A stretch of 64,000 nt of DNA, from positions 1 through 64,000 of the forward strand of contig JAAYSC010000040.1 in NCBI GenBank assembly GCA_012524025.1. The letters are read 5' to 3'. The notes beneath the pieces are model-generated. The model made no database searches. It worked only from the letters and a program-made list of their open reading frames with translations, and had not been told where the DNA came from. Below are positions 11,361 through 18,592 of the stretch, piece by piece. The position numbers and the translations under genes are program-made. Positions within the stretch are counted from its first letter, which is position 1. The number at the start of each line of letters is the position of its first letter. This DNA is from Clostridiales bacterium (lineage in GTDB: Bacteria; Bacillota; Clostridia; Oscillospirales; Acutalibacteraceae).

Positions 11361-12122
11361 ATGAACCAAAAACTGACGCCAGTAAAAAGGGCTAATTTAC
11401 CTTGTAACAAAGTAGGCCTTGCAATCGGATCTTGTTCGGCAAAAGCCTATAAAAGCTTAAAGGAGCGAGGCATTGAGCTTTTAGAACCGCTTGCAGAGCC
11501 AGGGTTGGAAAGAGCTTTATCCCGGCATTCAGACTTAGTATTTTTACATTTGGGTGATAAAAACATTGTAGTTAGTGAGCATCAGGCGACCTTAGCCGAA
11601 AAATTAGGAGAATATGGCTTTACAGAACCTCATTCAAGGCCCTTAATTAATTCACCTTACCCGCAAGATGTGCCTTTAAACCTGGTTTTACTGGGTGAAA
11701 ATGTAATTTGCAACACAAAAACTGCCTGGCCAAGCCTTTTAGAGCATCTTTATAGTGAAAATTTTAATATAATTGATGTTAAGCAAGGATATACCAAATG
11801 CTCTGTCTGTGTTGTCAATGAATCCGCCGTAATAACAGAAGATCGCACAATTGCATTGGCCTGTAATAAAGCGGGGATTGATGCCTTGCTCATAAGTAAA
11901 GGGACAATTAAGCTTAAAGGCCATGAATATGGCTTTATTGGTGGTTGCAGTGGATTGGTAGCCGGTGATTGCTTGGCGTTCCATGGCAAGTTGGAAGAGC
12001 ATAAAGATTCCCAAGTAATATATGATTTTTTAGACAGCCATAAAATTCAAGCTCTTTCTTTAAGCGATGAGTCATTAACCGACATCGGGGGAATATTGCC
12101 GATATTAGAATATGAACCTTGA
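11361..12122 (+). CDS. DUF6873-like GME-fold protein
   Basis: 253-residue soluble protein resembling a clostridial family of unknown function that I recall as DUF6873, related in fold to amidinotransferases (GME superfamily). Supporting features are the regular short beta/alpha pattern, DLVFLHLGDKNIVVS, the KQGYTKCSVCVV segment with a conserved Cys pair, ITEDRTIA, and the near C-terminal YGFIGGCSGLV and LTDIGGILPI. Whether the guanidine-group catalytic triad is present cannot be decided by eye. Start ATG lies 7 bases after the radA stop with a poor ribosome site, suggesting coupling. Its stop overlaps the ATG of a 35-codon frame (TGATG). Confidence 0.65.
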   Translation: MNQKLTPVKRANLPCNKVGLAIGSCSAKAYKSLKERGIELLEPLAEPGLERALSRHSDLVFLHLGDKNIVVSEHQATLAEKLGEYGFTEPHSRPLINSPYPQDVPLNLVLLGENVICNTKTAWPSLLEHLYSENFNIIDVKQGYTKCSVCVVNESAVITEDRTIALACNKAGIDALLISKGTIKLKGHEYGFIGGCSGLVAGDCLAFHGKLEEHKDSQVIYDFLDSHKIQALSLSDESLTDIGGILPILEYEP

Positions 12123-12243: not shown

Positions 12244-12273
12244 AACTTCGCAAAAGAAATGTTTTGCGAAGTT
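12244..12273. other. dif-like palindrome upstream of the Xer gene
   Basis: A perfect 12-bp inverted repeat with a 6-base centre. Its inner 28 bp (12245-12272) have the dif layout: 11-bp arm ACTTCGCAAAA, centre GAAATG, arm TTTTGCGAAGT. By eye the left arm matches the left arm of B. subtilis dif at 8 of 11 bases, and the right arm matches the XerD arm (TTATGTAAACT) at 7 of 11. No T-run follows on +, so it is not an ordinary terminator. It lies 36 bases before a tyrosine recombinase start and near the switch from + to - genes. An RNA hairpin or operator controlling that gene is the alternative. Confidence 0.4.
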
Positions 12274-12309
12274 GAGGGGATTAATTAAGCGAAAAGTAGG
12301 TATTTTTGA

Positions 12310-13293
12310 TTGAAACAGGAAAATTCAGAGCAAATGCCGGAACTTCTTATAGACTACATCAGGTATCTTGATGTGGTTAAAAACCGTTCTCCATTGACCG
12401 TTGAAGAATACGCACGCGACTTGAGAACCTTTTTTAAATTTCTTTTGAGGCTTCGCGGTAACTATGCCCCAAATGTTGATTTGAATGAAATCGATATTTC
12501 AGGGCTTGATATTGATTTTTTTAAAACCGTCACGCTAAATGATGCCTATTCCTTTTTGTCTTACTGTAGGCACGACAGAAACAATGCTGCGGTTACCCGA
12601 GCTCGCAAGGCGGTGTCTTTAAAACGATTCTTTCGATACTTGAGCGTACAGCTTAAGCTTTTGGAAGAAAACCCTTTACAAGAGCTTGAAACGCCTAAAA
12701 TTAAAAAAGCTTTACCAAAGTATTTGACCTTAGAGCAAAGCATTGATTTGTTAAACTCAGTTGAAGGTAAATTTAAGGAACGCGATTACTGCATTATGAC
12801 CCTGCTTCTGAACTGCGGTTTGAGACTGTCGGAATTGACGGCCTTGAATTTGAACAGCATTAGGTCCGATAACACAATGAGTGTCATCGGTAAAGGTAAT
12901 AAGGAAAGGATTGTTTATCTCAACGGAGCTTGTGTTAATGCCATAGAAAGATATCTGTCAGTTAGGCCCGGCGAAGCGCTAATAGACAGAAACGCATTGT
13001 TTATAAGCAGGAACAGACGCAGAATCAGCAACCGCGCTGTTGAGAATATTATTGAAAAATATGTAAAAAAGTCCGGCCTTGACGGCCAAGGAATAACTGT
13101 TCATAAGCTCCGACATACCGCGGCAACCTTAATGTATCAACACGGCGGTGTCGATATTTTACTTATTAAGGAAATATTGGGGCATGAAAATCTTTCTACA
13201 ACAGAAATATATACTCACCTTGTGGATTCGCAATTAAAAAATGCGGTTGATCAGAATCCCCTAAATAAACACTTTAAAAACGATAAAAGCTAA
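12310..13293 (+). CDS. xerC: tyrosine recombinase, XerC/XerD family
   Basis: Site-specific recombinase of 327 residues. The N-terminal SAM-like core-binding domain (about 1-115) contains YIRYLDVVKNRSPLTVEEY, as in XerC/D. The catalytic domain has the first Arg in CGLRLSEL (about 172), HKLRHTAAT (His/Arg about 264-267), LGHENLSTT and the nucleophile Tyr in IYTHL (about 300), so the active site is complete. Such proteins resolve chromosome dimers at dif with FtsK. TTG start, with AGTAGG 9 bases before it. It could be XerC or a stand-alone recombinase; the symmetrical palindrome upstream would fit one protein binding both arms. Confidence 0.88.
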   Translation: MKQENSEQMPELLIDYIRYLDVVKNRSPLTVEEYARDLRTFFKFLLRLRGNYAPNVDLNEIDISGLDIDFFKTVTLNDAYSFLSYCRHDRNNAAVTRARKAVSLKRFFRYLSVQLKLLEENPLQELETPKIKKALPKYLTLEQSIDLLNSVEGKFKERDYCIMTLLLNCGLRLSELTALNLNSIRSDNTMSVIGKGNKERIVYLNGACVNAIERYLSVRPGEALIDRNALFISRNRRRISNRAVENIIEKYVKKSGLDGQGITVHKLRHTAATLMYQHGGVDILLIKEILGHENLSTTEIYTHLVDSQLKNAVDQNPLNKHFKNDKS

Positions 13294-13345
13294 CTGCTAC
13301 TCTGTCGTCGGTCGACTCCCCTAAGTGAATTAATTAAGACTGTTG

Positions 13346-13390
13346 AAAAACTCCCCATCCGTCCAATAATGACGGAAAAGGGAGTTTTTT
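13346..13390. terminator. bidirectional terminator between convergent genes
   Basis: AAAAACTCCC (13346-13355) pairs with GGGAGTTTTT (13380-13389), with an inner CCGTC/GACGG stem. T-runs stand on both strands. It separates the recombinase gene (+) from the SCIFF maturase gene (-). Confidence 0.8.
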
Positions 13391-13409
13391 CTATTCTTTT
13401 ATTAGTCAT

Positions 13410-17410: not shown

Positions 17411-18592
17411 GTGAAAATCTTAAACGACTTTGTTAAAAATATTGATAAATTACTGCTATCACTCTGTTTACTTGCCTCTGCCCTTGGTGTTCTAATGGTT
17501 TACAGTGCCAGTTTAAGTTCTAAGTCGCAAGATCAAGTATTGTCGCGCGATGTTATTATAATGTTGGCGGCAGTCGGCTTGGGTTTGGTTTTATGTTTTA
17601 TCATTTCGGCCCTGGATTATGAGGCAGTGTTAAAATTATGGCCATTTTTTACAGCAATTTGTTTAGCTTTAATGTTTGCGCTTTTTATTTGGGGTGTGGG
17701 CCCCGGTGACAGGCCGGACGCAAAATCTTGGCTTTCTATAGGCGGAATACACTTTCAACCTTCAGAACTGCTTAAAATCGGCTTTATTTTGACCTTTTCC
17801 CTTCATATTGACGCCGTGAAGGGAAAGACCAATGATTTGAAAAACATTGCTTTATTAGCCCTTCACGGGATTTTTCCGGCACTTCTGGTCATAGTCACGG
17901 GTGATTTGGGTTCAGCCTTGGTTTTTGTTGGTATGTTTTTAGGCATGATGTTCTTAGCCGGTGTTAAATTTAAATTTTTTCTTATTGGCGGTGCTTTCGC
18001 TCTTGCCGGCCTTCCGGTGTTATGGCTAAAGTTTTTTTCTCAATTTCAAAAAGACAGGTTCCTTGCGATTTACTACCCACAGGGTTTATCCGAAAGCACT
18101 TATAAAACCATAATATATCAACAGCAACAAAGTGTAAATGCCATTGGTGCGGGCCGCCTGACCGGTAGCGGGCTTTTTAAGGGTGTTTTTACTCAGAACA
18201 ATCTTATACCGGTAGATGAAAGTGATATGATTTTTGCTGTTATAGGTGAAGAATTAGGTTTTATAGGTGCAGTTTTGTTTCTACTTTTATTAGCTTTTAT
18301 TGTTGTTAAAATTTTAAGTATAGCTCACAAAGCCAACACTTACTCGGGCAAGCTTATTAGTTACGGTATGGCGCTTATGCTGGGTGTGCAAACTATTATT
18401 AACATAGGTGTAAGCCTTAAGCTTTTGCCTTGCATCGGTATTACACTCCCCTTTTACAGCGCCGGGGGCTCTGCCAATATTTGCGTTTATATAGGTATAG
18501 GCATTTTATTGAGCATTTATCGTTCAAGTGTAATAACCAAACCTGTAAATTTCAGGCTCAGTCATATCAGCACGCCTTTTTCCGAAGCATAA
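17411..18592 (+). CDS. rodA: SEDS-family peptidoglycan glycosyltransferase (RodA/FtsW/SpoVE)
   Basis: Polytopic membrane enzyme polymerising lipid II, 393 residues with about ten hydrophobic segments. Conserved family blocks: KSWLSIGGIHFQPSELLKI, the loop IPVDESDMIFAVIGEELGFIG with the essential Asp, and GITLPFYSAGGSANI near the end. The Trp-Leu-Ser-Ile-Gly and Phe-Gln-Pro-Ser-Glu-Leu features fit RodA, but FtsW or SpoVE cannot be excluded and no partner transpeptidase gene is adjacent. Starts with GTG after GGGG. Alone on + between two minus-strand groups, with its own promoter at 17327. The 18-base gap to the pcrA end leaves no obvious terminator. Confidence 0.85.
   Translation: MKILNDFVKNIDKLLLSLCLLASALGVLMVYSASLSSKSQDQVLSRDVIIMLAAVGLGLVLCFIISALDYEAVLKLWPFFTAICLALMFALFIWGVGPGDRPDAKSWLSIGGIHFQPSELLKIGFILTFSLHIDAVKGKTNDLKNIALLALHGIFPALLVIVTGDLGSALVFVGMFLGMMFLAGVKFKFFLIGGAFALAGLPVLWLKFFSQFQKDRFLAIYYPQGLSESTYKTIIYQQQQSVNAIGAGRLTGSGLFKGVFTQNNLIPVDESDMIFAVIGEELGFIGAVLFLLLLAFIVVKILSIAHKANTYSGKLISYGMALMLGVQTIINIGVSLKLLPCIGITLPFYSAGGSANICVYIGIGILLSIYRSSVITKPVNFRLSHISTPFSEA

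Follow-up and report, generated by a model that had tools for sequence, protein, structure and literature searches.

The 64-kb window (the whole stretch of DNA that was analysed) harbours a perfect inverted repeat at positions 12244-12273 (AACTTCGCAAAA-GAAATG-TTTTGCGAAGTT; 12-6-12 geometry, arms 100% complementary), situated in front of a gene for a tyrosine recombinase (hereafter xer). The left arm (12244-12255, + strand), composed of an 11-bp half-site (ACTTCGCAAAA) and one outer base, has its exact reverse complement in the right arm (12262-12273, - strand), and the two enclose an asymmetric 6-bp spacer (GAAATG, 12256-12261, + strand) that is predicted to be the strand-exchange region and the cue for direction. 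The 28-bp dif-like core (11-6-11, 12245-12272, without strand) is the sole perfect 11-6-11 inverted repeat within the window, where 0.03 would be expected by chance (dinucleotide-preserving null), and has a single match in the 2.13-Mb genome when up to 3 mismatches are allowed. The general attributes of dif sites (~28 bp, two 11-bp arms, a 6-bp centre and one chromosomal copy) were all found in this genome, and a search of it for a canonical Firmicutes dif recovered none. The xer gene is a complete ORF (12310-13293, + strand, 327 aa) whose annotated TTG lies 36 bp from the 3' end of the palindrome (the true start codon is uncertain), and it encodes the sole PF00589 protein found in the draft genome (97% complete). 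These results bear out what the initial annotation had read from the locus, namely a perfect palindrome of dif geometry 36 bp before a complete tyrosine recombinase gene, and the checks that it had proposed (for repeats of the palindrome, for another dif-like site and for other Xer genes) came out in its favour. The gene directly upstream of the palindrome (11361-12122) codes for a DUF6873 protein, conserved but of unknown function.

One Xer recombinase per genome, as recovered here from a 97%-complete draft, is characteristic of single-recombinase Xer systems; one PF00589 protein each was also present in two genomes of the same genus (G002, G003) and in G009, G031 and G036. The catalytic residues (R172, K195, H265, R268, H292 and Y301) are invariant among 12 orthologs. 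When compared with the NCBIfam models, the protein scored 215 bits for XerC (cut-off 335), 207.7 bits for XerA (NF040815, cut-off 220), 198 bits for XerD (cut-off 330) and 155 bits for XerS (cut-off 267), reaching none of the four cut-offs, and the same families were matched by the 12 orthologs. The XerH profile matched it more weakly than those of XerD or XerA, and the nearest solved structures were XerA, XerD and XerH; the AlphaFold model was moderate (pLDDT 79, pTM 0.56), with unreliable domain placement, and was used for fold class alone. In a maximum-likelihood tree (built from the xer orthologs, clostridial XerD, E. coli XerC/XerD and clostridial XerS-like proteins, without XerH), a long and fully supported branch parted the orthologs from clostridial XerD and E. 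coli XerC/XerD, and another branch parted them from the XerS-like proteins, which formed a separate clade; E. coli XerC is itself a long branch, which makes finer placement within the tree unsure. The host genome furthermore encodes an FtsK with the gamma domain.

Of 60 relatives, drawn mainly from the order, 57 gave a match to the xer protein; in most of these the best match was ortholog-grade, and the relatives with an ortholog mostly had one such copy each. At the level of the class, an ortholog was present in about 80 of the 118 Clostridia genomes sampled (named carriers include Thermoanaerobacter wiegelii, Acutalibacter, Oscillibacter, Clostridium and Peptoniphilus), and two 99%-complete relatives from the order (G023, G027) had neither an ortholog nor a good palindromic site. 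Some of the ortholog-bearing genomes also encode a genuine XerD (which in a few adjoins the xer gene), so that a two-protein reaction is possible in those. At four loci (L211, L212, L213 and L214) the xer ortholog is followed, within 0.1-1.1 kb on its downstream side, by a convergent gene whose product is XerD-like (309-319 bits, slightly short of the cut-off), and the dif there is still perfectly symmetric. The ortholog-less clostridial families (L216, L218, L219, L221, L222) carry XerS-like recombinases, and for the three of these proteins that were scanned the best NCBIfam match was XerS, below its cut-off.

The conservation of the palindrome was assessed in a curated set of sites located upstream of the orthologs. 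From 138 loci, 85 palindromes were chosen by symmetry alone (vs. the few spurious ones expected from our own estimate, with a pairing chance of 0.26) and seven were dropped by eye as unrelated, leaving 78 sites in which 10 or all 11 of the arm positions are complementary. Perfect symmetry was recorded in 68 of these, and the set comprises 31 different half-sites, ranging from this genus's ACTTCGCAAAA to ATTATACAAAA (the commonest), ATTGAACAAAA, ACTTCGCTAAA, ATTGCGCATAA and others. Within the arms (11 positions) the fraction of complementary pairs was 0.94-1.00, and in the spacer it dropped from 0.85 for the outer pair to 0.13-0.23 for the four central bases; the positions immediately flanking the arms gave 0.81 and 0.56, and background was reached from position 17. 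All these fractions are inflated by the selection for symmetry. This per-position profile was used in place of counts of perfect 11-bp repeats by spacer length, which are uninformative since longer arms shift the counts to other even spacers. The arms change by Watson-Crick exchanges, and wobble (G-T type) pairs are almost absent among the 858 cells, which favours DNA rather than RNA as the level at which the symmetry matters. Arm symmetry is conserved by compensatory change across Clostridia, i.e. the palindrome is kept and its sequence is not, and the conservation in related genomes that had been put forward as a check of the initial reading was thereby recovered. The symmetry appears strong but not absolute, as the site of G002 (same genus, same place) has three mismatched pairs. 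None of the spacers upstream of orthologs is self-complementary, and the E. coli dif spacer recurs at some sites, as TGTATA in G164 and as its complement TATACA in Clostridium species.

An order-wide search with one half-site type recovered the site mostly once per genome, gene-linked in most. Two perfect dif-like sites were found in G046, the second of which (L224; contig 49, position 5107) has the spacer TGCAAA instead of TGAATA; its interpretation as a mobile element was rejected, given that the contig has an amino-acid kinase and a SpoU methylase, and the ordinary chromosomal genes there are accompanied by a group II intron. At two further loci (L199, L201) another perfect 11-6-11 palindrome, whose arms are of the canonical TTATG kind, is situated ~4-25 bp after the xer gene (AGTTCACATAA-ATATAT-TTATGTGAACT and AATTTACATAA-TATATA-TTATGTAAATT, both spacers self-complementary), so that xer has a different dif-like site on each side in these genomes.

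In the complete chromosomes from ten genera, in each of which dnaA was located, the distance from dnaA to the xer gene was 0.44-0.59 of the chromosome in 10/10 cases (0.445, 0.513, 0.477, 0.533, 0.475, 0.507, 0.488, 0.502, 0.588 and 0.473, with chromosome lengths rounded for six of the ten values), and a skew sign change was present near the site in the two complete relatives sampled for it (G010, G044). Within the window, the genes run on the + strand up to 13293 and mostly on the - strand after it (+ exceptions at 17411, 32567, 33596 and 51719). As the co-orientation of genes is a hallmark of replichores, this switch gives weak support to a meeting of replication arms. The cumulative GC skew of the window has its maximum at 13182 and the skew flips at 12-13 kb; the third-codon-position skew, taken along the coding strand, hardly differs between + and - genes or between the two sides, and thus the local flip reflects gene direction only and was rejected as terminus evidence after this control. 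For the earlier proposal that two replication arms meet here, we rely on the switch at 13293 and on the near-terminus position of the gene in all ten relatives; the skew flip is not independent of gene orientation. The interval 13294-13409 (no strand) is a predicted replichore junction, and the window itself, its own assembly being a draft, is placed at the replication terminus by inference from relatives. Between the converging genes, an inverted repeat at 13346-13389 (AAAAACTCCC/GGGAGTTTTT) represents an ordinary terminator-like feature.

Matching palindromes with exactly 6-bp spacers were also recovered from IMG/VR contigs (27 of the ATTATACAAAA-type, 11 of the ATTGAACAAAA-type and 3 of the ACTTCGCTAAA-type); control queries with altered outer bases or with a 5-bp spacer gave 0 matches each, and the window's own half-site type had no match in these viral contigs. 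Within the stretches fetched, the xer gene was present in 1 of the 41 site-bearing contigs, and the spacers of the viral sites were mostly unlike the chromosomal ones. Seven contigs (L157, L160, L165, L169, L171, L174 and L177) share one architecture, in which a terminase (526 aa), a 104-aa product and an SPP1-like portal (436 aa) are followed, ~280 bp after the portal gene, by a perfect ATTATACAAAA-type site, with no xer gene. It is possible that this group represents Xer-exploiting phages, and the site-bearing viral contigs as a whole may be Xer-exploiting elements or may carry dimer-resolution sites of their own.

We consider it highly probable that the locus is a terminus-located module in which a host dif (chromosome-dimer-resolution) site is linked to the gene for its single cognate Xer recombinase. 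Joined sister chromosomes would very probably be separated at this site, and a single enzyme would apparently do so where two are usual. The initial suggestion of a single-recombinase dif beside its gene is thus upheld by the one PF00589 protein, the conserved single-copy palindrome and the lack of a canonical Firmicutes dif in this genome. The distance between site and gene (29-520 bp upstream in most genomes) would also suit an operator for the control of xer, whether by the recombinase itself or by some other dimeric regulator, and dimeric repressors suit symmetric sites; such a role is, however, at odds with sites on the downstream side of the gene (L048, L193, L195), 6.5 kb (G044) or 11 kb (G015) away from it, on a different contig (G007, G039), or on viral contigs without any xer gene, and with a spacer that is constant at 6 bp and never self-complementary, and we regard it as quite improbable. 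Autoregulation may nonetheless take place alongside recombination. In the 11-kb gap of G015 an inserted phage was considered and rejected, as the gap apparently holds two tandem copies (equal-size ORFs, 5.45 kb apart). About one third of the ortholog loci have no clear site within ~700 bp upstream, and only some of them have a site further off.

The spacer is found in both directions relative to the xer gene, and the existence of inverted, downstream and unlinked copies also speaks against an RNA hairpin acting as the terminator of the upstream gene or as an attenuator of xer. Although the predicted RNA fold is strong (z -4.9) and the arms covary, no T run follows the site in the window, the stem is always 11 and the loop always 6 nt, and G-U type pairs are as scarce as noted above, which makes the hairpin the least credible of the readings considered. 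Tyrosine recombinases are often element-borne, and with matching sites on viral contigs one may ask whether recombinase and site are the integrase and att site of a mobile element, resident or domesticated, rather than a host dimer-resolution system. Against this, the ortholog occurs in most relatives of the order (mostly in one copy each) and near the terminus in all complete genomes examined, no phage genes were found among the window neighbours scanned, the genome has no second copy of the site, and the viral contigs, with one exception, are devoid of the xer gene; a mobile module seems to us very unlikely, even more so than an operator.

For the host dif reading, we infer binding, recombination, dimer resolution and FtsK activation along the following lines. 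Two monomers of one Xer protein would bind the two identical 11-bp half-sites, the two dif copies within a dimeric chromosome would synapse, and Tyr301 would make paired cuts at either edge of the 6-bp spacer, whereupon strand exchange would turn the dimer into monomers. The presence of an FtsK with the gamma domain makes septal activation plausible, and recombination would probably be activated by FtsK gamma at the septum. With two identical arms, only the asymmetric spacer is left to set polarity, as in Cre/loxP. The initial annotation rightly held that a symmetric site needs another cue for direction, but overlooked that the spacer can provide it. Cre/loxP likewise has identical arms, one recombinase and a direction given by an asymmetric spacer; it differs in being a phage P1 system of 13-8-13 geometry that acts on a plasmid prophage.

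The closest experimental and functional parallel is XerL/dif of the Legionellales, which shares the single recombinase, the perfect dyad symmetry, the location near the terminus and the exploitation by mobile elements (PMC9765430). In Legionella, however, xerL and dif are >400 kb apart, whereas here gene and site are usually adjacent, and the Legionella arms resemble no known Xer motif (PMC9765430), whereas the clostridial half-sites are Xer-like; the proteins also differ (predicted catalytic Tyr389 in Coxiella XerL vs. Tyr301 in 327 aa). XerS/difSL (streptococci, lactococci) and XerH/difH (Campylobacter, Helicobacter) have in common with the clostridial system a single recombinase and a site beside its gene at the terminus, but those sites are partly symmetric and difSL is atypical, with 31 bp (PMC5357621, PMC9765430); the xer protein moreover stays below the XerS cut-off (155 vs. 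267 bits). XerCD/dif (E. coli; CodV/RipX in B. subtilis) is similar in its 28-bp 11-6-11 site, related half-sites and FtsK gamma, and differs in using two proteins instead of one, whose XerC and XerD cut-offs are not reached here, and in an arm match of 6/11 (E. coli dif) as opposed to 11/11. Archaeal XerA/dif, described as FtsK-independent (PMC5357621), also relies on a single recombinase, and XerA is among the nearest solved structures, but the xer protein falls short of the XerA cut-off (207.7 vs. 220 bits). According to a comparison of Xer systems published in 2022, dyad symmetry without interruption was observed in Legionella and Coxiella only, the other dif sites (single-recombinase ones included) having, per the XerL authors, partial symmetry only, and gene-site adjacency is the rule in XerS and XerH systems and absent in Legionella (PMC9765430). 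The clostridial system unites perfect symmetry and adjacency in a different protein clade (XerL being compared by description), and no reports of it were found in open papers, subscription literature being outside the search.

On balance, we lean towards a broader picture in which an undescribed Xer clade acts alone across most Clostridia on a perfectly symmetric, loxP-like dif, which would have allowed XerD to take on other tasks or to be lost, and in which phages carry host-matched sites, mostly with spacers of their own, to use the host enzyme. The dif prediction of Kono et al., in which XerCD-trained models were applied to Firmicutes, failed in C. perfringens and C. beijerinckii (PMC3025954), and the symmetric clostridial sites might explain such failures of XerCD-based prediction in some clostridia. 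The system extends through much of a gut-bacterial class and, if true, it would offer a natural test of direction, strand-exchange order and FtsK control with identical half-sites and proteins, as well as orthogonal Cre/loxP-like tools and phage attachment sites.
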